DNA of 37,989 bases from Desulfoluna sp. (GTDB lineage Bacteria > Desulfobacterota > Desulfobacteria > Desulfobacterales > Desulfolunaceae), in assembly GCF_030145185.1 (NCBI RefSeq), contig NZ_JAQYWB010000057.1:1-37989 (forward strand). Direction: 5' to 3'. Position 1 is the stretch's first letter; the number at the start of each line of letters is the position of its first letter. Below, in pieces: positions 956-13,601 of the stretch. Below the pieces are notes generated by a model. The model was not told the DNA's origin. It saw nothing but the letters and a program-made list of their open reading frames with translations, and ran no database searches. The position numbers were made by a program, and so were the translations under genes.

Positions 956-2440
956 ATGCTGGACAGTAATATTTCGATTTTGATTTCGTTTATTCTTTAC
1001 CTGATTTTTATGGTGGGGATTGGTTGGGTTTATTACGGCAAGACGAAGACCCTTTCGGATTACATCCTTGGGGGACGCGGTTTAAACAGCTGGGTGGGGG
1101 CCATGAGCGCCCAGGCGTCGGACATGAGCGGGTGGCTGTTGCTGGGCCTGCCCGGGTACGCTTACGTAGCGGGCCTGGAGTCGTTCTGGATCGCTTTCGG
1201 GCTGGCATTTGGGACCTGGTTGAACTGGAAATTTGTGGCGGTGAGGCTTCGGAATTACACGGAGATCTCTGGCGATTCCATCACCCTGCCTGACTACTTT
1301 GAAAACCGGTTTCGGGACACCTCGCATCTGCTTCGGATTATTTCAGCCATCTTTATTCTGATCTTTTTCCTGATTTATACCGCCTCTGGCTTTGTGGCCG
1401 GGGCCAAGCTTTTCAGCACCGTGTTTGGCCTTACCTATGACCTCGGCCTTCTTATCGGTGTGGCGGTGATCATCTCCTACACCTTCCTCGGCGGGTTTAT
1501 GGCGGTGAGCTGGACCGATTTTTTTCAAGGGATCATCATGATCGTGGCCATTATTGTGGTGCCGACCCTGGGAATCCTGAAGGTGGGGGGCCTTTCCGCC
1601 ACCCTCGATGGGATCCGTTCCATCAACCCCGAGCTCCTCAATCTCTTTACCGACACCCAAGGGGTGCCACTGGCTGTTTTAAGCGTGGTTTCCCTTGCAG
1701 CCTGGGGGCTGGGTTACTTTGGCCAGCCTCATATCCTGGCTCGTTTCATGGCCATTCGAACCACCGCTGAGATTCGAAAGGCCAAAAAGATCGCCATGGC
1801 CTGGGTCGTGGTCAGCCTCTCTTTTGCTGTGGTGGTGGGTCTTGTGGGCTTGATCTGTCTTGATGCTCCCCTGGCCGCAGGCGATCAGGAGAAGATTTTT
1901 ATGGTCATGGTGCATCAGCTGGTCCCCACGGTTTTGGCCGGGGTCTTTCTCGCAGCCATCCTGGCCGCCATCATGAGCACCGCCGACTCCCAGCTTCTCG
2001 TGACCTCATCGGCCCTGACCGAGGATTTTTACAAGGTGCTGTTCAGGCGAGACGCCTCCGATGCGGAGCTCGTCTGGGTGAGCCGCGTGGCTGTGATTCT
2101 GGTGGCGGTATTGGCCTGGTTTTTTGCGCGTAACCCGGACAGCTCGGTATTGAGCCTTGTATCCTATGCCTGGGCCGGATTCGGTGCCACCTTCGGTCCC
2201 ATCATCCTTCTCTCCCTCTATTGGAAGCGCATGACCCGTAACGGGGCCCTTGCCGGCATTGTGGTCGGCGGCCTTACCGTGATTGTCTGGAAACAGCTCT
2301 CAGGCGGCTTTTTTGACCTGTATGAGATCGTTCCCGGCTTTGTGGTATCCATCCTTGCGATTGTTGTGGGGAGTCTCATGGACGCTGAGCCTGCCCAGGA
2401 GATTCAGGGGGAATTCGATGCGGTCAATCGGTTGATGTAA
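956..2440 (+). CDS. putP: sodium/proline symporter PutP
   Basis: 494-residue inner-membrane protein of the sodium:solute symporter family, which imports proline with Na+. It follows E. coli PutP closely from end to end: DYILGGR at residues 35-41, the Na+-site segment ASDMSGWLL near residue 56, a long run of hydrophobic helices, GYFGQPHILARFMA, and AAIMSTADSQLL in the second half, where PutP has its other Na+ ligands. I chose ATG 956 because GGAAG lies 8 bases upstream and the N-terminus then aligns with PutP; the frame is open back to a TTG at 887 but those residues have no family counterpart. It stands alone, with no putA beside it. A terminator-like hairpin precedes it and a repeat module begins 23 bases after its stop. 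Confidence 0.93.
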   Translation: MLDSNISILISFILYLIFMVGIGWVYYGKTKTLSDYILGGRGLNSWVGAMSAQASDMSGWLLLGLPGYAYVAGLESFWIAFGLAFGTWLNWKFVAVRLRNYTEISGDSITLPDYFENRFRDTSHLLRIISAIFILIFFLIYTASGFVAGAKLFSTVFGLTYDLGLLIGVAVIISYTFLGGFMAVSWTDFFQGIIMIVAIIVVPTLGILKVGGLSATLDGIRSINPELLNLFTDTQGVPLAVLSVVSLAAWGLGYFGQPHILARFMAIRTTAEIRKAKKIAMAWVVVSLSFAVVVGLVGLICLDAPLAAGDQEKIFMVMVHQLVPTVLAGVFLAAILAAIMSTADSQLLVTSSALTEDFYKVLFRRDASDAELVWVSRVAVILVAVLAWFFARNPDSSVLSLVSYAWAGFGATFGPIILLSLYWKRMTRNGALAGIVVGGLTVIVWKQLSGGFFDLYEIVPGFVVSILAIVVGSLMDAEPAQEIQGEFDAVNRLM

Positions 2441-2593
2441 ACGAAAAGTAACGTTTCAGCTTGTGCCTCCGGCGGCCCTGCCTAAGAGTGTCGGGTGCAA
2501 GGCTCCGCCTTGCCGGTACGAAAAGTCGTATCGCTGGAGTGAAACTCACAGATTGCTGGGCCTCAAGCATGGAGGCGGAGCCTCCGGGGAGCA

Positions 2594-2614
2594 TTCCCAG
2601 GCGGAGCCTGGGAA
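2594..2614. repeat. 9-bp-stem palindrome, CCCAGGC type
   Basis: TTCCCAGGC-GGA-GCCTGGGAA is a perfect 9-bp stem with a 3-base loop. Palindromes of this type are seen between genes in many bacteria (family knowledge, unverified here). Confidence 0.6.
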
Positions 2615-2709
2615 CGAGAGAGAACCACGCTCGATACCTATTTCAAAGAATGTGGCTGAAACGATGACTAAGGCCACGGGTTAATATGTATGCCGGAGGC
2701 TTTTTTAGC

Positions 2710-2722
2710 GCTGAATAGTTAC
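2710..2722. repeat. 13-base motif GCTGAATAGTTAC, copy 2
   Basis: Exact copy of the motif at 516-528 and 8750-8762. As at 8750 it follows a GCCGGAGGC segment and a T-run within about 15 bases. Confidence 0.7.
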
Positions 2723-2806
2723 AACGAAAAAGCGGGGTTGTGACGGCAAAGGCGCTTTACCGCCTTGACCGTTGTGAGTCTGCCCTTCCCTTATCTGTTT
2801 CAAGTG

Positions 2807-2848
2807 AAAAAGCCGTAAGGACTCGTTGAGAGTCCTTACGGCTTTTTT
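2807..2848. terminator. strong bidirectional intrinsic terminator
   Basis: AAAAAGCCGTAAGGACTC (2807-2824) pairs perfectly with 2830-2847 around loop GTTGA. There is an A-run on the left and T-run on the right, so it can act in both directions. It sits between convergent transcripts: putP from the left and the minus-strand operon ending at 3110 from the right. Confidence 0.85.
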
Positions 2849-3042
2849 GCGTTTACACAGAGACGTCGTGGAAACCTGCGTTCAAGGTGGTACGCCTTGC
2901 CGACGGAGTGATTCCGGTTTAAGCCAACGGCTGAGTTGGATTCTGCCCACCTGCAGCTCTCGCACTTGCTATGCACTGGGCATTTTCCTGCACTTCATGC
3001 GAATGCGGATGCATTTCAGCCCGAAGTGACGGTACCCGATGC

Positions 3043-3097
3043 GCATTCGCAAACCCGCTTTCGAGGTGGCACACCTCGCCGCCGGAGGCTTTTTTTG
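3043..3097. repeat. intergenic hairpin repeat, copy B
   Basis: Same unit as 762-817 and 8692-8746. Its stem is CGAGGTG-GCA-CACCTCG, where the other copies have CAAGGTG/CACCTTG. An A-T pair is replaced by a G-C pair, so the stem is kept. It ends 13 bases before the stop codon of the minus-strand gene. Confidence 0.8.
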
Positions 3098-3109
3098 TTA
3101 TCTGCAACC

Positions 3110-3772
3110 CTACCCGAAGAGTGCATCCAGGTGTTCTGCCAGGGTGCCCGATCGGGCCAGGGCGAGAAGGTTTTCGGCTTTTAGGACGTGGGTTTGGGTG
3201 GCTTTGGGGTGAAAGGGGGTCAGAGCCTCTTCATCCCCATTCATGGAGAGGAGGCAGAGTTTTTCAGCTTGCTCCAGCGCGTCGACGAGGGCGGTCGGGG
3301 GCAGGTCTCCTGTGGCGGCCACGGTCCACTTTTTTCCCAGCTCCTGGTAGAGGAGGAGGGCGTCCAGCTCCCGGGTGACGAGGGCGGTTCGGTTTGTGGT
3401 GCCTTCAAGGACAAAGGGTGTGGGGGCGCTCCCTTCCACGGTGTGGTAGTCGCCGTCGTGGCCGTGGCCTATGCGGTAGATGACGATGCGTTTCAGCTCT
3501 TTTTTTTCGATGACGGGAAGGGTGATCCCTTCGGGGAGGAGAATTTTATCGGTGCCTGAGAGCCCCCAGCTTTCGGCCGGGCGCTGGGTGTTGCGCACCT
3601 GCCAGCCAAGGAGGGCCTCTTTTAAGGTGGAGAGGGAAAAACCCGATTCATAGAGCCACGCCTGGATGGCTTCGTTGTGTTTTCCCCAGAGCATTTTTTC
3701 TGCTTTGATGGTGGCGGCCACGGCTTTTTCATTCCAGAGCTCAGGGTTCGTCACCGTTTCGTTTGTTTCCAT
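3110..3772 (-). CDS. degenerate TOPRIM/primase-like protein
   Basis: 220 residues, probably cytoplasmic. The layout recalls the small CHC2/TOPRIM primase-related proteins of Desulfobacterota: an N-terminal helical segment with WL..GFSL.TLKEALLGW, a central β-rich part (LPEGITLPVI...RIVIYRI), then RELDALLLYQELG at about 134-146, resembling the TOPRIM glutamate motif, and LLSMNGDEEA at about 174-183, where a TOPRIM DxD motif would be but with Asn in place of the first Asp. No zinc-finger cysteines are present. I chose ATG 3772 because it overlaps the upstream stop (TGATG) and has GGAG 8 bases before it, so it is probably translationally coupled. It is the last gene of a three-gene operon. The family call is tentative; a replication role is not implied. 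Confidence 0.6.
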   Translation of the reverse strand: METNETVTNPELWNEKAVAATIKAEKMLWGKHNEAIQAWLYESGFSLSTLKEALLGWQVRNTQRPAESWGLSGTDKILLPEGITLPVIEKKELKRIVIYRIGHGHDGDYHTVEGSAPTPFVLEGTTNRTALVTRELDALLLYQELGKKWTVAATGDLPPTALVDALEQAEKLCLLSMNGDEEALTPFHPKATQTHVLKAENLLALARSGTLAEHLDALFG

Positions 3773-4476
3773 CAGCACAGCTCCATCACGGAGTTCCATC
3801 GTTCCCGTTCGGTTGCGACGGGCAGTCCGCTTTGTTTCATGGATTTTATCAAATTTTTTTCATTAAACCGTACAAAGGGGTTGGCTCGTTTCTCATCGGC
3901 CAGGGTGGAGACAACGTGGGCCGGGTCGTAGAGCGTGAGGTACCGTGCGATCTCCGCTTCATTTTCCGGTTCGATGGTTCTGGCAAAGGCCATGGACTCC
4001 TGGACATAGTCATGCCCGGCGTAGATCTTTGTGTCGTCCGGAAAGGTCAGGAGAAAGGTGATGGCGCGGAAGAAGCTCTCCATGTCACCGGAAAAGCAGG
4101 TCCCCACGGTTCCATTAAAGAGGGTGTCCCCGGTGATGAGGTGCCCTTTGATCTCGAAGGTGAGGCAGTCCTCCATGTGGCCGGGGGTGTGGTGAACGAG
4201 GAGGGGCTCTCCGTCAATGTCCAGCCGTCCGGTGTCCATCAGGGTTTGAACGTCCAGGTGTGTGGCGCCCGAGTGCTGGATCAGCGGGGCGTTGCCGACG
4301 GTGTGATCCGGGTGGGTGTGGGTGTTGATTACGTGGGTGAGGGTGAGGCCCTGGGTGTGGATAAATTCCAGGATCTCATCGACGGCACCTGGGTCGATGG
4401 CGATGGCCGTTTTCGGTCCGCTGACCACGTAGGCAAAATTGTCGGCGCTGTAGCGGAACTGGGTCAGGGTGAGCAT
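3772..4476 (-). CDS. gloB: hydroxyacylglutathione hydrolase-like metallo-β-lactamase-fold protein
   Basis: 234 residues. The metal site of glyoxalase II is easy to see: THTHPDH at 52-58, H100 in HTPGHMED, D117 in TGDTLF and H155 in AGHDYV. The C-terminal ANPFVRF near 198-204 matches the substrate-binding tail of GloB proteins. The expected reaction is hydrolysis of S-lactoylglutathione or a related thioester in the cytoplasm. Many anaerobic deltaproteobacteria make little glutathione, so the true thiol may differ (inference). Start ATG 4476 has GGAG 8 bases upstream. It is the middle gene of the minus-strand operon, 19 bases after the 129-residue gene. Confidence 0.85.
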   Translation of the reverse strand: MLTLTQFRYSADNFAYVVSGPKTAIAIDPGAVDEILEFIHTQGLTLTHVINTHTHPDHTVGNAPLIQHSGATHLDVQTLMDTGRLDIDGEPLLVHHTPGHMEDCLTFEIKGHLITGDTLFNGTVGTCFSGDMESFFRAITFLLTFPDDTKIYAGHDYVQESMAFARTIEPENEAEIARYLTLYDPAHVVSTLADEKRANPFVRFNEKNLIKSMKQSGLPVATERERWNSVMELC

Positions 4477-4495
4477 GGTGGTGTCTCCGTGTGTA

Positions 4496-4885
4496 TCAAA
4501 TGGGTTTTACGGGCAGGGCATCCACGGTGAGGGTGAGGGTTTCGCCCTTCAACTGGAGGTCCCATGATTTAATGCCTTTCAGCATGGCCGGGTAGGTCGC
4601 CTGCTTGGCTGCGATGAGTTCCAGGATGAATCGGGTGAAGACCTCTTTTTTGTCGCCTTGCAGCTCGGCCGGAAGGCGCGGTTCGATTTTTTGTCGGTAG
4701 CCGTCCTCTCCAGGGCTTTCAAACAGAGAGAGGTTCCAGCCGGTCACGGCCAGTGAGACCAGGAGTTTTTTCATGGCATCGTCTTCCCCGCAGGCGGCAA
4801 GGAGAGGGGAGGCCAGGGAGAGGAGTGCGTCGGCGACGTCGGCGTTCGTGCAGGCGGAAAACTGTTTGACGGAAAGGGTGCTCAT
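4496..4885 (-). CDS. hypothetical protein
   Basis: 129 residues, no signal peptide or membrane segment, mixed helical character with a C-terminal β-like segment (LQLKGETLTLTVDALPV). I do not recognise the family. AAGGA lies a few bases before ATG 4885, and a candidate promoter is about 100 bases upstream, making it the first gene of the operon with gloB and the TOPRIM-like gene. Conserved spacing with gloB suggests it is real. Confidence 0.7.
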   Translation of the reverse strand: MSTLSVKQFSACTNADVADALLSLASPLLAACGEDDAMKKLLVSLAVTGWNLSLFESPGEDGYRQKIEPRLPAELQGDKKEVFTRFILELIAAKQATYPAMLKGIKSWDLQLKGETLTLTVDALPVKPI

Positions 4886-4985
4886 GGGAAGTCCTTAAGG
4901 TCTTGGAGTCAAGGGTACGACGCCTCGTGGAAGGGCGGGTGCGTCAGGATAGCCATCCTTTCCCGGCAGGGGTTGGGATGCCCTC

Positions 4986-5013
4986 AAATTAAGCTGATTC
5001 CATCAAAAGTCAA
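4986..5013 (-). promoter_or_regulatory. σ70-type promoter candidate for the gloB operon
   Basis: On the minus strand TTGACT, 16 bases, TAATTT. It would give a leader of about 95 bases before ATG 4885. Confidence 0.5.
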
Positions 5014-5083
5014 GGGGTAGAACCCAGGGTTCCCCAGGTCAGGTGTGGGGGGCTTGTCACGAAATTGCGTCGAGGAATGCTCC

Positions 5084-5112
5084 TTGATCTTTGGCAAGGG
5101 CTGTTTTAATAT
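5084..5112 (+). promoter_or_regulatory. σ70-type promoter candidate for the purine genes
   Basis: TTGATC, 17 bases, TAATAT, upstream of the IMP cyclohydrolase gene. Moderate match to consensus. Confidence 0.45.
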
Positions 5113-5282
5113 TGCGCCACCTGCCGCGGCCCGCAGTTTTTGGGGATGTTGCCCCTGTTGATAAGGCACAAATCGTCTTATGACTGCAATGTACGCCTGT
5201 CTGGAAGGGTGCATGGGCTATGAAATCATCTATCACACGACGCCGCCTTAAGCGGGGGCACCACACAAAACGGGACAGAACT

Positions 5283-5963
5283 ATGGGGATGAATATTGTC
5301 GATCGCATCGATGACCGGGTCACGGTCAATCAGGTGCTGATCAGTGTGTCGGACAAGAGCGGGCTGGATGAATTTATCCCGGCCCTGGTGCGGATTAATC
5401 CGTCGATTCGTATTTTTTCAACGGGGGGCACCTTCGGGGCCATTGAAAAAATTCTTGGCGATGCGGCTGGAAAGCATCTGGTCCAGGTATCGGATTATAC
5501 CGGTCAGCCGGAGACCCAAGGGGGCCTTGTTAAAACCCTTGATTTTAAGATCTATCTGGGAATTCTTACCGAAAAATATAACGATTCTCATCAGGAAGAC
5601 TTAAAGAGAACCGGTGCAGTTCCGATAGATATGGTAGTTGTGAATCTTTATCCCTTTGCTTCCACCGTGGCCCGAGATGGGGTGAGTGTGGAGGAGGCGA
5701 GGAGCAATATTGATATCGGCGGTCCCACTATGGTCCGGGCATCTGCCAAGAATTACCTGCGTGTGGCGTCTGTGGTGAACCCTTCCGATTACGGCGCGGT
5801 TGTTGACGCCCTGACGGCCAACGGGGGGGCTACGGATTTGGCCCTGCGTTACGGGCTGGCGGTGAAGGCCTTTGAGCATACCGCAGCCTATGACCGACAT
5901 ATTGCCGATTATCTTGTTAAACAGACCCCGGAATGCGTTTCGGGTTGTTATAGCGCGTCCTAA
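5283..5963 (+). CDS. purH: stand-alone IMP cyclohydrolase domain (PurH N-terminal half)
   Basis: 226 residues. It corresponds to the MGS-like IMP cyclohydrolase half of bifunctional PurH, which closes FAICAR to IMP, the last step of purine synthesis. Visible family motifs in order are SVSDKSGL, FSTGGTF, a YTGQPETQGGLVKTLDFK segment carrying the VKTL active-site lysine region, VVVNLYPF and NIDIGGPTMVRASAKN. The protein ends where the linker to the transformylase half would begin. The other half is a separate gene 125 bases downstream in another frame with its own strong ribosome-binding site, so I read this as a natural gene split, not a frameshift. ATG 5283 is preferred on alignment; ATG 5289 is possible, and no start has a strong Shine-Dalgarno. 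Confidence 0.88.
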   Translation: MGMNIVDRIDDRVTVNQVLISVSDKSGLDEFIPALVRINPSIRIFSTGGTFGAIEKILGDAAGKHLVQVSDYTGQPETQGGLVKTLDFKIYLGILTEKYNDSHQEDLKRTGAVPIDMVVVNLYPFASTVARDGVSVEEARSNIDIGGPTMVRASAKNYLRVASVVNPSDYGAVVDALTANGGATDLALRYGLAVKAFEHTAAYDRHIADYLVKQTPECVSGCYSAS

Positions 5964-6088
5964 ACCTTGAGCCGGACCCGACAGGAGGATGCGGTGGCTG
6001 TCATGAGATCGTCGAAGGCGCTTTACGGTATCGCCTGCCCGACCTTTGATAAAGCCATCAGACGACATCCTGCGGGGGGAGATAGAAC

Positions 6089-7339
6089 ATGGCAGACGAT
6101 CTGAAGAAGATGTACCGAACCATCATGGACGACCATTTTGCCCCGGCCATGGAGATTTCGTTTGTGGACGGCGCCAACCGCCAGACTCTTTTTTATGAAA
6201 AAGTGGCCTGGACCATTGACCAGGTTAAGAAGGGGCTTCGTTACGGCGAAAACCCCGGCCAGGAGGCGGCGCTTTATCGCCTGACTAACGGTAACCTGGT
6301 GGTGGGCGAGACCCAGACCCTTGCCCCCGGGCGTCACCTTGCCTCGGATATTGAGCTGCTCCAGTCCGGGAAACACCCGGGCAAGACCAATCTCACCGAC
6401 GCTGATAATGCCCTGAATATTTTGCGATATTTTACCGATCGCCCTACGGCGGTTATCGTCAAGCACAACAACCCCTGCGGTGCGGCCCGTGCCGATTCCC
6501 TTGAGGAGGCCTACGCCAAGGCCTACATGGCTGACCGTATTGCGGCTTTCGGAGGGTGTATTGCCCTGAACCGGAGCGTGGACAAGGCCACGGCTGAAGC
6601 CATCAGTCATCAGTATGCCGAGGTGGTTGTGGCCCCTGATTTCGAAGAGGGCAGCCTTGAGATCCTCTCTGCACGGAAGAACCTCCGGGTGATTCGTATC
6701 GGCAACATGGACCGCCTCCAGGGGTATGTGGGAGAGCGCGTGGTGGATTTCAAGAGCCTCATGGACGGCGGGCTGATCGCTCAGCTCTCCTTTGTTCCGG
6801 AGGCCCGGACCCGCCAGGACCTCAAGCTGGCCGAATGCGATTACAAGGGGACCCGTTATGCGATCAATAGGGAACCCACCGATGCCGAGTATGAGGACAT
6901 GCTTTTTGGCTGGCTCGTAGAGTCTGGCATTACCTCCAACTCCGTGATCTATGTGAAAGACCAGGTGACGGTGGGCATCGGCACCGGCGAGCAGGATCGT
7001 GTGGGCGTGGCTGAGATTGCGGTGGACAAGGCCTACAAGAAGCTTGCCGATCGCTACGCCTTTGAGACCTATGGCGTGGGTTATGTCGATCTGACGGATG
7101 CCGACAAGAAGGCGGAGATTGACGCACGGGTGAAAGCAGAAAATGGGGGGATCAAAGGTGCCTCCATGATCAGCGATGCGTTTTTCCCTTTTCGGGATGG
7201 CGCCGATGTGGGGCTTCGTGAAGGGGTCTCTTCCATTGTGCATTCCGGCGGTTCCATGAATGATTATCAGTCCATCGAGGCGTGCAACGAATATGACGCC
7301 ACCATGGTCTACACCGGTCAGCGGAGTTTCAAGCACTGA
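6089..7339 (+). CDS. purH: stand-alone AICAR transformylase (PurH C-terminal half)
   Basis: 416 residues. It matches the AICAR transformylase half of PurH, which formylates AICAR with 10-formyl-THF. Family motifs are LRYGENPGQEA (50-60), SD.ELLQSGK, the catalytic KHNNPCGAA (125-133), DRIAAFGGCIALN, and SDAFFPFRDGADVGL near residue 370. It is longer than the usual half (about 320), with an extra N-terminal region and an insertion around TDAEYEDMLFGW. GGGGGAG lies 7 bases before ATG 6089. It is cotranscribed with the cyclohydrolase gene upstream, and together the two replace one bifunctional PurH. Confidence 0.9.
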   Translation: MADDLKKMYRTIMDDHFAPAMEISFVDGANRQTLFYEKVAWTIDQVKKGLRYGENPGQEAALYRLTNGNLVVGETQTLAPGRHLASDIELLQSGKHPGKTNLTDADNALNILRYFTDRPTAVIVKHNNPCGAARADSLEEAYAKAYMADRIAAFGGCIALNRSVDKATAEAISHQYAEVVVAPDFEEGSLEILSARKNLRVIRIGNMDRLQGYVGERVVDFKSLMDGGLIAQLSFVPEARTRQDLKLAECDYKGTRYAINREPTDAEYEDMLFGWLVESGITSNSVIYVKDQVTVGIGTGEQDRVGVAEIAVDKAYKKLADRYAFETYGVGYVDLTDADKKAEIDARVKAENGGIKGASMISDAFFPFRDGADVGLREGVSSIVHSGGSMNDYQSIEACNEYDATMVYTGQRSFKH

Positions 7340-7506: not shown

Positions 7507-8445
7507 ATGACGGATAAGCCTGCGTTGAAGATTGGGCACTTGCGGATCACCGACCACTTGATTCTTGGTGTGACGGACCTCAAGCTGAAGAAGGGAATGG
7601 AGATCTTTAAGCATTGCAGCCTCCAGCCGGTGTTGAAAAACGGGTGGAACGAGGTGGCCGATGATCTGGCGACCGGTGCTCTGGATGGTGCGTTTATTCT
7701 CGCGCCCACGGCCATGGATATTTACAAGTCCGGGGTGGGCATCAAGCTGATTCTCTTTACCCACAAGTCGGGCAGTGTCCTGGTGAAGAGCATGCGGGCG
7801 GGCATTCAGCGCATTGAAGATTTTGCGGGTAAGGTGGTGTTGATCCCCTACCAGCTCTCCGTTCACAACATGCTGTTTCACCGCCTTCTTAAAGAGAAGG
7901 GGCTGAACCCCGGCACAACGAGTGACAAAAAAGCCGATGTGTTTCTGGAGGTGGTGGCGCCTTTTCAGATGCCGGATGCCATCAATCTGGATGAGGACGG
8001 TGAGATCGCCGGGTTTATCGTGGCCGAGCCCTTCGGGACCCAGGTGATCAACAGCGGCAATGGTGAAGCCCTTCATCTCTCGTGTGACCTCTGGCCCAAG
8101 CATCCCTGCTGTGTTCTGGTGATGCGTGACGAAGTGATTGAGAAAAATCCAGACGCCGTCCACGAGCTGACCCGTAGCCTTGTGCGGTCTGGCCTGGCGG
8201 TGGAAGCGCAGCCGAAACCGGCCTCCATTATCGGTGCCGATTTTCTGGGTCAGAACAGCGATGTGATTTACAAGGTTCTCACCGAACCCAAAGAGCGTAT
8301 CTCTACGGACGAGCTTTTTCCGGTGATTGACGATTTGGCCATCATTCAGGATTACATGAAAGACGAGATGGGCATTTTAACGGATAAGATCGACCTGGAT
8401 AAGTTTGTGGACACCCGTTTTGCGCGGGATGCCGGAGCCAAATAG
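7507..8445 (+). CDS. NrtA/CmpA-type substrate-binding protein without a signal peptide
   Basis: 312 residues with the fold pattern of ABC-type nitrate/sulfonate/bicarbonate binding proteins (type II periplasmic fold): KIGHLRITDHLILG at the N-terminus, a GALDGAFILAPTAMD segment, a hinge and a conserved KHPCCVLVMRDEVIEKNPDAV near residue 200. Starting at ATG 7507 the fold begins at once and there is no signal peptide or lipobox. The frame continues upstream to 7399 with cysteine-rich, non-hydrophobic residues that are not an export signal either. No permease or ATPase gene is nearby. It may be a cytoplasmic ligand sensor, as NasS is for nitrate (inference), or its partners may be elsewhere. The Shine-Dalgarno is weak. 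Confidence 0.75.
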   Translation: MTDKPALKIGHLRITDHLILGVTDLKLKKGMEIFKHCSLQPVLKNGWNEVADDLATGALDGAFILAPTAMDIYKSGVGIKLILFTHKSGSVLVKSMRAGIQRIEDFAGKVVLIPYQLSVHNMLFHRLLKEKGLNPGTTSDKKADVFLEVVAPFQMPDAINLDEDGEIAGFIVAEPFGTQVINSGNGEALHLSCDLWPKHPCCVLVMRDEVIEKNPDAVHELTRSLVRSGLAVEAQPKPASIIGADFLGQNSDVIYKVLTEPKERISTDELFPVIDDLAIIQDYMKDEMGILTDKIDLDKFVDTRFARDAGAK

Positions 8446-8851: not shown

Positions 8852-10174
8852 TCAGTCTCGGGGGCCGGCTTTTTCGATGATGCGAAAAATGCCATCGATG
8901 GTACGGCTTTCCCAGAGACCCTTTCCGCTGAAGGTGGGTTTTGATTCCTTGTTGAGGCGGACCGCTACCTGGGCGGCAGACAATTCCTCCCGGCGTTTCA
9001 TGCCGATGATCTCCTTTAAAATATAATCTTTGTACGCTGCCGGGTCCGAGGGGAAGGGTCGATCCGGCTCGCTTGCCTTCGAGGGGGCGGACTGGAGGGT
9101 TTCGTCGTTCGGTGCGGGCTCGGTGGGGGGCGTCTCCACGAGGTCCCAGAGGTTATCCTGTTCCGAGTCGGTTTCGGCGGGTTTTTTCTGCCCCATGGGT
9201 TCCGTGGGTGTGGGCCGGGGGGAGGGCGGTTCATCTGCAACAGCCCAGAGATCGTCCAGGCCTGTGTCACTCATGGGGGTTTTATCGCTCGTCGTCGGGG
9301 TGTTTTCCACCAACGCCCACAGGTCGTCAAGCTCTGCGGCCCCTCCTTCCTCGGGCGTTTCATCCACCAGTGCCCAGAGATTGTCCAGATCTTCTTCCGG
9401 GGGCTTCTCCACCAGATCCCACAGATTGTCTCCCCCGTCCTCCGGCGGGACGGTATTTTCTTCAACAAGACTCCAGAGATCATCCAGGGGCTCTTCGGTG
9501 GGTGCTTCCACCAGGGCACTGAGATCGTCTATGTTTTCGTCCTGGAGGGGCTCGTTCACCAGGGCGCTGAGATCATCTAAGGTCGGTTTCTCGGTGGGGG
9601 GCGTTTCCCTTTTGGCAGGATCCTTTATGGGTGCGGCGGGTATGGGTTCCGCCGTTCTTTTGGGGGGTAAAGGGGCGGCAGGAGCCGATGCGGCCAAGGG
9701 GATCCCGGAGGTTTGAAGGGCGGTGAGGATGGCGGACAGGCTGCGGGCTTTTTCCTCTTCGATGGATAGGCGGCGCTCCATGGCGGAGGCTTTGCGTTCC
9801 TCTGCTTCGGCAAGGCGGCGCTGCTGGATCACGAGCCGGGCCAGAAGGGACGGCGTGGGGTTTTCTTCATCGAGAAGGGAGAGGATATCGTCATCTTCGT
9901 CTTGCCGGAAGGCGTTCCGAGAGAAGAGGGGGCCTTGTCCTGAAGCCCGGTTTCTCAAGGCCTGGCGAATCTCTTCCTGGGTGAGTCCCGATTCGGTGCA
10001 TTCGGAGATATAGGTGAAGAGGAGGATGTCTTCCCGGGTGAGGGCCGGCTCGCCTTCATCGCCGGGGCGGGTGAGGAACTCGCTGTAGATATGTTGCCAC
10101 AGAAGAAGGGTAGAGACTCCGGTTTTGAGTTCCTTTGCGGCCTCTTCAACACTGTATCGCTTTTCGTCGGCCAT
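8852..10174 (-). CDS. MerR-like protein with eight DDLW repeats and recombinase-like tail
   Basis: 440 residues. Residues about 6-73 read as a MerR-type helix-turn-helix (YSVEEAAKELKTGVSTLLLW...LTREDI...GLTQEEIRQAL). Residues about 105-155 are a charged likely coiled coil (RRLAEAEERKASAMERRLSIEEEKA). After a Pro/Ala-rich linker come eight acidic repeats of [LIGQ]D[DN]L[SW]xx[VL]: at about 199, 215, 230, 248, 263, 282, 306 and 339; the first two have Ser where the rest have Trp. A possible ninth (DDILSLLDEENP) is near 95. The C-terminal 60 residues end in LNKESKPTFSGKGLW-type sequence, like the DNA-binding tail of serine recombinases, but with no catalytic domain. I chose ATG 10174 (GGAG 5 bases upstream). 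The function is unknown; a DNA-binding scaffold is an inference. Confidence 0.75.
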   Translation of the reverse strand: MADEKRYSVEEAAKELKTGVSTLLLWQHIYSEFLTRPGDEGEPALTREDILLFTYISECTESGLTQEEIRQALRNRASGQGPLFSRNAFRQDEDDDILSLLDEENPTPSLLARLVIQQRRLAEAEERKASAMERRLSIEEEKARSLSAILTALQTSGIPLAASAPAAPLPPKRTAEPIPAAPIKDPAKRETPPTEKPTLDDLSALVNEPLQDENIDDLSALVEAPTEEPLDDLWSLVEENTVPPEDGGDNLWDLVEKPPEEDLDNLWALVDETPEEGGAAELDDLWALVENTPTTSDKTPMSDTGLDDLWAVADEPPSPRPTPTEPMGQKKPAETDSEQDNLWDLVETPPTEPAPNDETLQSAPSKASEPDRPFPSDPAAYKDYILKEIIGMKRREELSAAQVAVRLNKESKPTFSGKGLWESRTIDGIFRIIEKAGPRD

Positions 10175-10279
10175 TCCTTCTCCGTACGGTGGCAACTGAT
10201 GGATTTGCTTATTTCAGGAGATGATCAATCATCCGCCTAAGTTGATTTCGTGCATTTTAGTGTATTTTCACCGGTGGTG

Positions 10280-10936: not shown

Positions 10937-11398
10937 ATGGGTATTTATCCCAAAAAAGATTGTCAGATCAGGTTGTGCCTTTCAAACAACAGCCAACTGG
11001 ACGGCCTTGTGAATATCGTGGGCCGGGACATCAGAACCTTTCTTCTGGACGATGAGTCCGATATCGTCATGTACGAGGCCGTCAATGGGGAAGATGAAAA
11101 ACGGCGCCCCATGATTGTCCCCAAAAAGCATATTCTCTGGTTGGAGGTCAAGGGGTGCGACCTTGCCGAGCGGAAGATGGCGCTTTACCGTAAATTAAAG
11201 ATCAAGCTGATCAACGGCCAGGTGGTGAGCGGGGAAATTGATATCACCGGGTACGATCGCGTGTCTGATTATGTTCTCAAGAACTCCGATCTGTTCAGCG
11301 AAGTCGCCGAGGCCACCATTGATGGTGAAATTATTCGATCTATTGTGTTTGTCTCAACGACCCAGTACCTCTGGGTCGTTCCCGACGAAGACGCATGA
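10937..11398 (+). CDS. hypothetical protein with two repeated halves, next to PilT-like ATPases
   Basis: 153 residues, no signal peptide or membrane segment. The two halves look like copies of one β-rich unit: the N-terminal half has SQLDGLVNIVGRDIR..LL..ESDIVMYEA and the C-terminal half has QVVSGEIDITGYDRVSDYVLKNSDLFSEVAEA. The RVSDYV..SDLF pattern recalls small DUF6812-type proteins (tentative). AAGGAG sits 6 bases before ATG 10937. It is 28 bases upstream of the first ATPase gene and almost certainly cotranscribed with it, so a role with the pilus motor or its regulation is plausible. Confidence 0.72.
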   Translation: MGIYPKKDCQIRLCLSNNSQLDGLVNIVGRDIRTFLLDDESDIVMYEAVNGEDEKRRPMIVPKKHILWLEVKGCDLAERKMALYRKLKIKLINGQVVSGEIDITGYDRVSDYVLKNSDLFSEVAEATIDGEIIRSIVFVSTTQYLWVVPDEDA

Positions 11399-11426
11399 GC
11401 GGGCGAAGGGGTTCGAGAGGTGTGAT

Positions 11427-12494
11427 GTGGCAGAATTAGATAAGGTGTTTCAAGCGGGTGTCGCGTTGCGTGCCTCCGATGTGCACGTGGTGCCGGGTGA
11501 ACCGATTATTATGCGCAGGAACGGGGCGTTGGTTAAAACCAAAACTCCGAAGTTGAAGATCGAGCAGACCAGGCGTCTGATTCTGGAGCTGCTCTCACCG
11601 GAGGATAAGGAGCTCCTGGAGAAAGATCATCAACTTGACTTTTCCTACGAGATCAAGGGTGTGGGTCGTTTCAGGGGGAGCGCCATGGCTCATAACCGAG
11701 GGCTCAGCGCGGCATTTCGGGTGATCCCACCCGCTCTCCCTACGCTGCCATCCACCGGGCTTCCCGAGGTGGTGGAAAAGGTTCTGGATCAGCACCAGGG
11801 GTTGATTCTGGTGACCGGTGCCACCGGAATGGGCAAGACCACCACCCTGGCGGCCATGGTGGATTTTCTTAACGAGCGGCGGGCGCACCATATTCTCACC
11901 GTGGAAGACCCCATTGAGTTTGTTCACCCCAAAAAGAAGGGGGTCGTGAACCAGAGGCAGATAGGGCGAGACACCCGTTCTTATCTCAACGCGTTGAAAG
12001 GGGCGCTGAGGGAGGACCCGGATGTCATCGTCATCGGGGAGCTTCGGGACCTTGAAACCATCTCTCTGGCCATCAGCGCAGCCGAGACGGGGCATCTTGT
12101 CATCGGAACCCTCTCCACCACCAACGCCCCGAAAACCGTGGATCGCATCATCGATTCCTATCCCCCGGGTGAGCAGTCTCAGATTCGGGCCACCCTGGCG
12201 GAAACCTTGAAAGCCGTGGTCACTCAGAAGCTGATCCCTTCGGACGCGGATGATCGGATGCTTATGGCCGCTGAAATCCTGATCATCAACTTGCCGGTGG
12301 CGGGTTTGATCCGGGACTCCAAAGTGTTCCAAATCCCCAATCTCATGCAGACGGGCAAGAGCTTCGGCATGAAGTTGATGGATGAGTCGGTGATGGACCT
12401 GTTTAATCAGGGGTTGATCAGCGCGGAGAAGGCGTTGACGCATGTGCAGTCTGAGACGACTCAGCGACAATTGAAGGCAAAGCTTGCGGGGTGA
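11427..12494 (+). CDS. PilT/PilU-type ATPase, variant motifs
   Basis: 355 residues, cytoplasmic hexameric ATPase family that retracts type IV pili. Walker A is GATGMGKTT (131-139; family GPTGSGKST), the Asp-box segment is TVEDPIEFVH, and Walker B is DPDVIVIGE (197-205). The His box reads TGHLVIGTLST: H223 is kept but the second histidine is Ser230. GTG 11427 is chosen because GAGAGG lies 6 bases upstream and the ASDVHVV start then matches the family; the frame is open to 11238 but that part overlaps the previous gene. With its neighbour at 12543 it forms a PilT-PilU-like pair. No pilin or pilB gene is in view. Confidence 0.87.
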   Translation: MAELDKVFQAGVALRASDVHVVPGEPIIMRRNGALVKTKTPKLKIEQTRRLILELLSPEDKELLEKDHQLDFSYEIKGVGRFRGSAMAHNRGLSAAFRVIPPALPTLPSTGLPEVVEKVLDQHQGLILVTGATGMGKTTTLAAMVDFLNERRAHHILTVEDPIEFVHPKKKGVVNQRQIGRDTRSYLNALKGALREDPDVIVIGELRDLETISLAISAAETGHLVIGTLSTTNAPKTVDRIIDSYPPGEQSQIRATLAETLKAVVTQKLIPSDADDRMLMAAEILIINLPVAGLIRDSKVFQIPNLMQTGKSFGMKLMDESVMDLFNQGLISAEKALTHVQSETTQRQLKAKLAG

Positions 12495-12513
12495 GGATGA
12501 TGCAACTGAAAAC

Positions 12514-12531
12514 GGACGGCTTGAGCCGTCC
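12514..12531 (+). promoter_or_regulatory. hairpin beside the ribosome-binding site of the second ATPase
   Basis: GGACGGC-TTGA-GCCGTCC is a perfect 7-bp stem between the two ATPase genes. The Shine-Dalgarno AGGGGG begins at 12533, one base after the stem, so folding could limit initiation at GTG 12543 or protect the downstream mRNA after processing. Confidence 0.45.
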
Positions 12532-12542
12532 AGGGGGATGCT

Positions 12543-13601
12543 GTGGCTGTAATTGATACCTACTTCAGGGAACTGAGCGAAAAAGGGGCCAGTGACCTCC
12601 ATATGGTCATTGGTTGCCCGCCTCTTCTGCGTTTAAAAGGGGAGCTGGTGGACACCGATCATCCGGTGCTGGATCGGGAGCGGATGAAAGAGGTGCTCTG
12701 GGAGATCCTGCCCAGGGAGAAACAGAAAGAATATGAAGCAAATCTCGATCTGGATATGGCCTATGAGCTGGAAGGGGTGGGGCGTTTCCGGTGCAATTTC
12801 TTTTTCCATCACAACGGCCCTGGTGCGGTGTTTCGGCTGATTCCCACCGATATTCTGACCCTGGAACAGCTGGGGATGCCCCCGGTACTGAAGACCATTG
12901 CCGATTTTTCCCAGGGGCTGGTTCTGGTGACCGGGCCCACGGGAAGCGGCAAGTCAACCACCCTGGCCGCCATGATCGATTACATCAACAAGAGTCGGGA
13001 AGCCCATATCATCACCATTGAAGACCCCTTGGAGTTTGTGCATCAGAATCGTCGGTGTATCTTTACCCAGAGGGAGATCGGAACCCACGCGGCGAGTTTT
13101 GCTGACGCCTTGAGGGTGGCTGGTCGTGAGGACCCCGACATTATTCTTGTGGGGGAGATGCGGGATAAGGAGACCATCAGCCTGGCCTTGACCTGTGCAG
13201 AGTTGGGAATTCTGGTGTTCGGGACCCTTCACACCAACAGCGCGTCCAAGACCGTGGACCGCGTGATCAACGCCTTTTCTGCCGACCAGCAGGCGCAGGT
13301 GCGCACCATGTTCTCCGAGTCTTTGAAGGCGGTGGTAGCTCAGCAACTTCTCAAGACCGCCGACGGGACAGGGCGCTGTGCGGCCAATGAGATTCTTCTG
13401 GGCTCCACGGCCCTTGCCAGCGTGATCCGCAGCGGCAAAATCGCTCAGATCAACTCCATGATCCAGACGGGAACCTCCCAGGGCATGCAGAGCATGGATC
13501 AGCATTTGATGCAGCTGGTGAAGGAGAAGAAGATTACCGGTATGGCGGCCTATGAAAAGGCCATGGACAAATCCCTCTTCGGCGCCATGAAAAACGCCTG
13601 A
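12543..13601 (+). CDS. PilT-type twitching motility ATPase
   Basis: 352 residues. It has canonical Walker A GPTGSGKST (131-139), Asp box TIEDPLEFVH, Walker B DPDIILVGE (197-205) and TLHTNSA with H230. The first His-box histidine is replaced: LGILVFGTLHT has I223 where the family has His. Start GTG 12543 follows AGGGGG at 5 bases. The two ATPases align without gaps through these motifs and share about half their residues by eye, so they are paralogues. The most likely role is type IV pilus retraction or a related secretion motor; with PilB, pilins and PilC absent from the window, the assignment rests on family alone. Confidence 0.9.
   Translation: MAVIDTYFRELSEKGASDLHMVIGCPPLLRLKGELVDTDHPVLDRERMKEVLWEILPREKQKEYEANLDLDMAYELEGVGRFRCNFFFHHNGPGAVFRLIPTDILTLEQLGMPPVLKTIADFSQGLVLVTGPTGSGKSTTLAAMIDYINKSREAHIITIEDPLEFVHQNRRCIFTQREIGTHAASFADALRVAGREDPDIILVGEMRDKETISLALTCAELGILVFGTLHTNSASKTVDRVINAFSADQQAQVRTMFSESLKAVVAQQLLKTADGTGRCAANEILLGSTALASVIRSGKIAQINSMIQTGTSQGMQSMDQHLMQLVKEKKITGMAAYEKAMDKSLFGAMKNA

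Follow-up and report, generated by a model that had tools for sequence, protein, structure and literature searches.

Arrays of short docking motifs have been well studied in eukaryotes and less in bacteria; repeats of an amphipathic acidic motif on a disordered arm are the usual look of a multivalent docking array. RacA pairs a MerR-type head with a non-regulatory, DivIVA-binding arm and has centromere-like sites. In Myxococcus, the chemosensory clusters of FrzCD are borne by the nucleoid (PMC5716589; PMC6952110), and FrzCD is a receptor whose N-terminal tail carries positive charge (PMC5716589).

Here we describe a repeat protein of the marine sulfate reducer Desulfoluna sp. (genome of 5.79 Mb), encoded in a stretch of 37,989 nucleotides, hereafter the window. 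Like the MerR regulators and RacA, this protein has a MerR-type head followed by a predicted long helix. Unlike the MerR regulators, it has no effector domain that we could find, and the proteins of its family combine a recombinase-like tail with a long disordered arm that bears 4-12 docking-like motifs. That tail resembles the Recombinase domain (PF07508) of the large serine recombinases (SPbeta SprA/YokA) by profile and weakly by fold, but it is only about 60 residues long and comes without a resolvase catalytic domain. The analogy with FrzCD would lie in a chemosensory complex assembled on DNA, the difference being that ours is a separate protein with repeats and putative DNA binding (PMC5716589). 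Homologues of an NMT1-like protein encoded next to the repeat gene combine receiver and CheW domains, as the CheV/CheW adaptors do, but they insert an NMT1-like domain, and the repeat protein itself has neither receiver nor CheW (CheV: PMC12691637). The predicted architecture, the conservation of the motif and the gene neighbourhood are established below from sequences and structural models.

Domain layout of the repeat protein

The repeat gene occupies positions 8852..10174 on the minus strand of the window, and its ORF translates from the ATG at 10174 into 440 amino acids. The frame is open upstream as far as a TTG at 10195, and a Met stands at the same start position in all five Desulfoluna genus mates. 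From the N- to the C-terminus, the parts are a MerR-type helix-turn-helix head (residues 7-74; 9953..10156, minus strand), a predicted long helix of the AEERKAxAxE type (residues 106-155; 9710..9859, minus strand), which is kept in the 26-protein alignment, an acidic arm, predicted to be disordered, and a recombinase-like tail of three helices (residues 378-436; 8867..9043, minus strand). AlphaFold2, run with 26 sequences, predicted the head and the tail confidently, together with the helix, which, in this single-chain model, aligns with the helix following the head in MerR structures. The arm (residues ~160-370) had pLDDT values mostly below 50, in agreement with the preliminary description, in which the repeat region was thought to be disordered. 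Short helices were predicted at residues 218-222, 233-236, 267-270 and 287-290, each of them on a motif copy (4 of the 8 copies). With a pTM of 0.28, the mutual arrangement of the parts is not predicted by the model.

The head matched PF13411 (MerR_1) over residues 7-74 with 22.0 bits, against a cut-off of 21.6, when the whole protein was searched, and with 26.7 bits when the head was searched alone, bearing out the MerR-type domain proposed for the N-terminus. Its model superposed on the DNA-binding domain of RacA with a Z of 10.4 and an rmsd of 1.7 over 68 residues, which places it within the MerR-like fold; the TM value was ~0.8 on the target, in a Foldseek listing without any E-value <0.001. 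With the whole model, the best Foldseek match was a MerR protein at E 0.015, and none reached 0.001. CbpM and DafA, MerR-like folds that bind proteins, were also among the structure matches of the head. The net charge of the head is -6 in the window protein and negative in 20 of the 26 proteins (median -3), and the tail is mildly basic (+3 in the window protein, median +2). The earlier suggestion that both ends look DNA-binding holds for the resemblance of the folds, but it is weakened by the acidic head and by the protein-binding MerR-like folds, and the statement that the protein is DNA-bound needs tempering.

The tail of the window protein scored 14.7-15 bits against PF07508 (Recombinase), below the Pfam cut-off of 21.1; one relative reached 21.9 bits, and 28 of 30 tails of family members and paralogues matched the domain at E<=0.1. 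A tail profile searched against solved structures matched the SPbeta recombinase 9dxh at E 8.3e-7; designed helical proteins outscoring the recombinase in this search were taken as composition hits. Foldseek with the tail model listed Pax-6 as the best match at 0.85 and serine integrases from 1.2, with nothing at E<=0.001. A resolvase catalytic domain was not found by Pfam in the whole protein at E<=1, MerR_1 being the sole match. The proposed recombinase-like C-terminus lacking a catalytic domain is supported by profiles, though the window's own tail falls below the cut-off.

The same tail recurs in two other protein families of these bacteria. One, of ~200 aa, is common (L005, L017, L020, L023, L024 and others) and has MxDFLxxLR close to the N-terminus, a helix of the AEERKA type and a tail resembling TFSGRGKWHAQTIHRLC; NCBIfam gave nothing beyond chance-level matches for it (L005, L017), and in PHROGs the L017 paralogue matched an integrase at 9e-6. 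The other, of 275-293 aa (L002, L028, L030), joins an unassigned N-terminal part to the same type of tail, and tail matches place it in 5 of 6 Desulfoluna genomes, three of which were read.

No model in Pfam, NCBIfam, PHROGs or PADLOC covers the layout of the repeat protein at its whole length, in keeping with the earlier remark that no protein so built had been described. In PHROGs, the head and the helix of the window protein matched a single family, of unknown function, at E 0.01. PADLOC returned no match for the window protein or L012, and a Cas12c match in L087 (12.6 bits) was taken as chance. In IMG/VR, searched with patterns from one sequence only, no relative was confirmed. On these searches, a phage or mobile-element reading of the gene was set aside. 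Among the papers listed in literature searches, none gives an account of the family; the one match to the motif strings, in a D-Ala ligase paper, was unrelated.

The motif array in the window gene

Eight motif copies lie in the arm, all on the minus strand: DDLSALV (copy 1, 9557..9577), DDLSALV (copy 2, 9509..9529), DDLWSLV (copy 3, 9464..9484), DNLWDLV (copy 4, 9410..9430), DNLWALV (copy 5, 9365..9385), DDLWALV (copy 6, 9308..9328), DDLWAVA (copy 7, 9236..9256) and DNLWDLV (copy 8, 9137..9157). They begin at residues 200, 216, 231, 249, 264, 283, 307 and 340, with a spacing of 15-33, and span window positions 9137-9577. The eight copies at this spacing, given before as residues 199-346 (9137-9580), match once the preceding residue is counted, and the translation agrees with Ser in the first two copies and Trp in the other six. 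The pattern xD[DN]L[SW]xx[VL], said to hold for all eight, describes copies 1-6 and 8, but copy 7 deviates at its end. When the residues of the linker were shuffled (n=2000), the mean was 0.039 copies and the maximum 1, versus the 8 real ones.

The 21-nt copies have a mean nucleotide identity of 0.70 (0.57-0.90), and a residue shared between copies is encoded by a shared codon in 58 of 123 cases (0.47), versus 0.38 expected from the usage of the gene. Tandem Repeats Finder reported one short row in the gene, away from the motif repeats. The differing codons and the lack of a tandem row at the repeats indicate that no recent DNA duplication is visible in the window gene, as the preliminary description had held. 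A scan of the whole genome gave 14 hits for the W-type pattern and 70 for the S-type pattern, clustered only within the repeat gene; elsewhere, the nearest neighbours are ~2 kb apart.

Conservation of the array among relatives

The array is present in all 28 neighbourhood loci, with 2-12 copies (two in L117), and all other ORFs at these loci have at most one; the 26 loci from the class list hold 4-12 copies in the ORFs read (for L076, the second part only). A count of repeats across relatives had been proposed as a check, and no repeat-lacking homologue appeared among the 28 loci, collected with a profile that includes the array and could therefore miss repeat-less family members. Aligning 26 proteins, the window protein included, yielded 185 copies of the search pattern [DE][DN]L..[LVI][LVIA]; this pattern allows nothing but L at position 3 and restricts the choice at positions 1, 2, 6 and 7. 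Within this pattern, D stands at position 1 and L at position 6 in 183 of 185 copies each. Position 4 is Ser in 129 of them, Trp in 27 and Gly in 12; L, M or I usually comes before the motif and D/E usually after it. The pattern-limited consensus is D, D/N, L, S/W/G, any, L, V/I/L, and in shuffled linkers of the 26 proteins the same pattern occurred on average at most 0.23 times.

Of the Trp/Leu motifs in the preliminary description, the Leu core is kept, but Trp is not general: at position 4 it is largely a feature of Desulfoluna. The window gene and its counterparts in all five genus mates have Trp copies (L055 has no Ser copies), genus g62 (L089, L092-L095, L099, L102) has a single Trp copy near the end, and in the sister genera (L058, L059) all copies carry Ser apart from one with Pro. 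The motif core is retained in proteins just 25-33% identical overall to the window protein, so that its maintenance at the protein level, claimed for the window gene, extends across genera. A plain 42-nt tandem DNA array in L081 and near-identical copies in L087 and L091 indicate that repeat expansion happens in some lineages.

All eight genomes of the bacterial family have a match to the repeat gene. In the class, 74 of 291 genomes match at E<=1e-6, many through the tail or the helix alone; those counted as carrying the gene are the 45 with a best E <1e-13. A search of 395 genomes of the phylum at E<=1e-10 gave 8 matches, namely the window genome over its full length, five head-only, one helix-only and one tail-only; this draw apparently came without the matching f35 genomes and says little about the order. 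In conclusion, the family is real, is present in several families of the order and is unnamed in the libraries searched. In one metagenome-assembled genome the repeat gene is frame-broken (L009/L026/L056) and in another genome it contains an N run (L018/L119), which suggests that the array may be hard to assemble.

The motif resembled the CheY-binding peptides of FliM and CheZ. A profile of the 185 copies scored the N-terminus of the organism's FliM at -1.4, and 499 of 569 other ORF products, five family members missed by clustering included (L118, L119, L128, L129, L132), scored at least as high. With FliM below most ORF products, the FliM-like reading was dropped. The best hit of the profile outside the family was in a CheA of the L109 cluster, and some hits fell in REC-NMT1 proteins; these hits may be due to chance.

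Gene neighbourhood

The most constant neighbour in the 28 loci compared is a gene for an NMT1-like protein (PF13379 by Pfam; 312 aa), located in the window at 7507..8445 on the plus strand, convergent with the repeat gene; the two do not form one operon. By eye, the protein has no signal peptide or hydrophobic leader. The two genes lie tail-to-tail in 36 of the 45 class genomes, with 10-415 nt between matched ends, cases that are not independent given the long synteny in Desulfobacteraceae-like genomes, so that the Fisher value is inflated by kinship. In the remaining nine, the NMT1-like orthologue (a match of at least 57% identity) is divergent in one (G159), elsewhere in six and absent in two; 11 further class genomes have the orthologue without the repeat gene. 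Among the genus mates, L057 has no NMT1-like gene adjoining the repeat gene.

Domain scans revealed fused homologues of the NMT1-like protein: REC-NMT1 (L109; L121 at 5164-6570, from the window's own genome; L130), REC-NMT1-CheW (L122 at 2968-6567; L125 at 2096-4057) and REC-NMT1-SpoIIE (L124 at 2397-4805). The REC-NMT1-CheW proteins look CheV-like, with a built-in small-molecule sensor. In L130, a single-domain NMT1-like gene and a REC-NMT1 gene are consecutive and share a strand. All four readable loci of genus g37 (L108, L113, L119, L128) have a CheW gene directly downstream of the repeat gene and on its strand; in the other g37 genomes, the contig ends within the repeat gene (G261) or no repeat-gene match was obtained (G081). 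L109 has CheA, a receiver protein, CheR and the NMT1-like gene on one side of the repeat gene, and REC-NMT1, CheD, CheB, CheX, an HDOD-like protein, a second CheD-like protein, CheA and CheW on the other, the HDOD-like and second CheD-like proteins being assigned by eye. The CheW context and the che-cluster context each represent one lineage. In the two g81 genomes (L100, L101), the repeat gene adjoins a gene for a cyclic-nucleotide-binding-type protein, and not the NMT1-like gene or CheW.

A gene for PrkA, assigned by Pfam in L103 and by clustering in the other loci, stands back-to-back with the repeat gene in 9 of the 28 loci (L105, L106, L110, L112-L116, L119), with gaps of 55-559 nt; in three more (L103, L107, L111), the repeat gene and the divergent prkA are separated by a nitroreductase-like gene. 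This arrangement was seen in Desulfobacteraceae-like genomes, and likewise in g37, in which the NMT1-like gene is no longer adjacent. No prkA adjoins the repeat gene in the window, in L053-L059 or in L100, L101, L102, L104, L108, L109, L117 and L118; these include f34 (L100, L101, L117), L102, with prkA a few ORFs upstream, and L108, where the contig ends.

The outer neighbours differ by lineage across the 28 loci: the window has a split purH, L058 has cation-efflux and metallo-hydrolase genes, Desulfobacteraceae-like genomes have ispD and a prkA-DUF444-spoVR block, and L112 has TetR and enoyl-CoA hydratase genes. The two parts of purH (5220-5963 and 6089-7339, plus strand) differ in frame and are separated by 125 nt, the break falling within the AICARFT domain; the PurH halves are likewise separate, at 80-95% identity, in L053, L054, L055 and L056, which makes an assembly error unlikely. 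On the other side, the stretches 10937-11398 and 11238-13601 (plus strand) hold two tandem type II/IV secretion ATPase genes, which we take to be PilT/PilU-like, behind a small protein with a sub-threshold match to DUF6812.

Discussion

Repeats of a conserved motif, both amphipathic and acidic, along a disordered arm point to a docking array, and that the array as such serves in docking is, on these features, quite probable. That the docked partner belongs to a chemosensory-type system, as the gene context suggests, is possible, though short of an even chance. Our preferred reading, held tentatively, is that the repeat protein would serve a cytosolic chemosensory-type pathway as a multivalent docking scaffold and might be anchored on DNA. 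Specifically, the MerR-like head and the long helix would probably make the protein a dimer, most members would display, on the acidic disordered arm of ~200 residues, 4-12 short helices that are amphipathic and follow the form phi-D-D-L-S/W-x-L-V/I-D/E, and the recombinase-like three-helix tail would close the protein. With one partner molecule docked on each helix, a single dimer would gather many copies. The neighbourhoods hint at candidates, namely the NMT1-like protein, CheW, receiver domains and PrkA; the likeliest pool would be a cytosolic chemosensory-type module made of the NMT1-like neighbour, its REC/CheW relatives and CheW. In addition, the folded ends may hold the assembly on DNA. 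We infer all four elements of this scheme, the dimer, the docking, the identity of the partner and the anchoring on DNA, and the partner could be encoded elsewhere. Gene context speaks for the scheme indirectly, through related genomes and with CheW contexts from two lineages; prkA offers a competing context, and the comparison with FliM failed to support it.

The DNA-bound multivalent hub of the preliminary description retains its conserved motif, its disordered arm and its DNA-binding-like folds, but loses its emphasis on Trp and is opposed by the acidic head. The case for a DNA-anchored assembly is weak because the head is net acidic, while the tail is mildly basic. It is improbable that the protein represents a new class of DNA-anchored scaffold, in which a soluble chemosensory assembly of NMT1-like, receiver and CheW proteins would be kept at the nucleoid by head and tail, its size set by the number of repeats.

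An unlikely, yet serious, alternative is a MerR-type transcription regulator, placed by its head (and tail) on promoters, in one family on that of the divergent prkA-DUF444-spoVR operon, with the acidic repeats contacting RNA polymerase or another factor. A head above the Pfam cut-off and a model resembling MerR regulators up to the following helix fit such a protein, and the back-to-back arrangement with prkA, expected of a regulator, is its best support; it has to contend with the loci without an adjoining prkA (the window, L053-L059 and eight more of the 28) and with a head that is negatively charged in most of the proteins. To our knowledge, MerR regulators do not usually carry a docking array of 4-12 copies. 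Quite improbable is a nucleoid- or chromosome-anchoring protein like Bacillus RacA, with the MerR head on DNA and, beyond the helix, an arm linking the chromosome to some other structure: the RacA DNA-binding domain is among the closest solved folds and both ends have a DNA-binding type of fold, but the head is acidic, and the neighbours scanned, a subset of the ORFs, included no recognisable division or partition genes.

Expansion within a disordered linker could also have left the repeats as a by-product without any partner, as the tandem array of L081 and the near-identical copies of L087 and L091 might suggest. This we regard as very improbable, since the window copies vary in codons and spacing without a tandem DNA array and the motif core outlasts the divergence of the rest of the protein.

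Thus one array of short docking-type motifs is conserved in several families of sulfate reducers, and the protein that carries it has no name in the libraries searched. The genes around it point to concrete candidate partners, among them proteins in which an NMT1-like domain is fused to receiver and CheW domains, and the chemosensory link of the repeat protein is new and testable.
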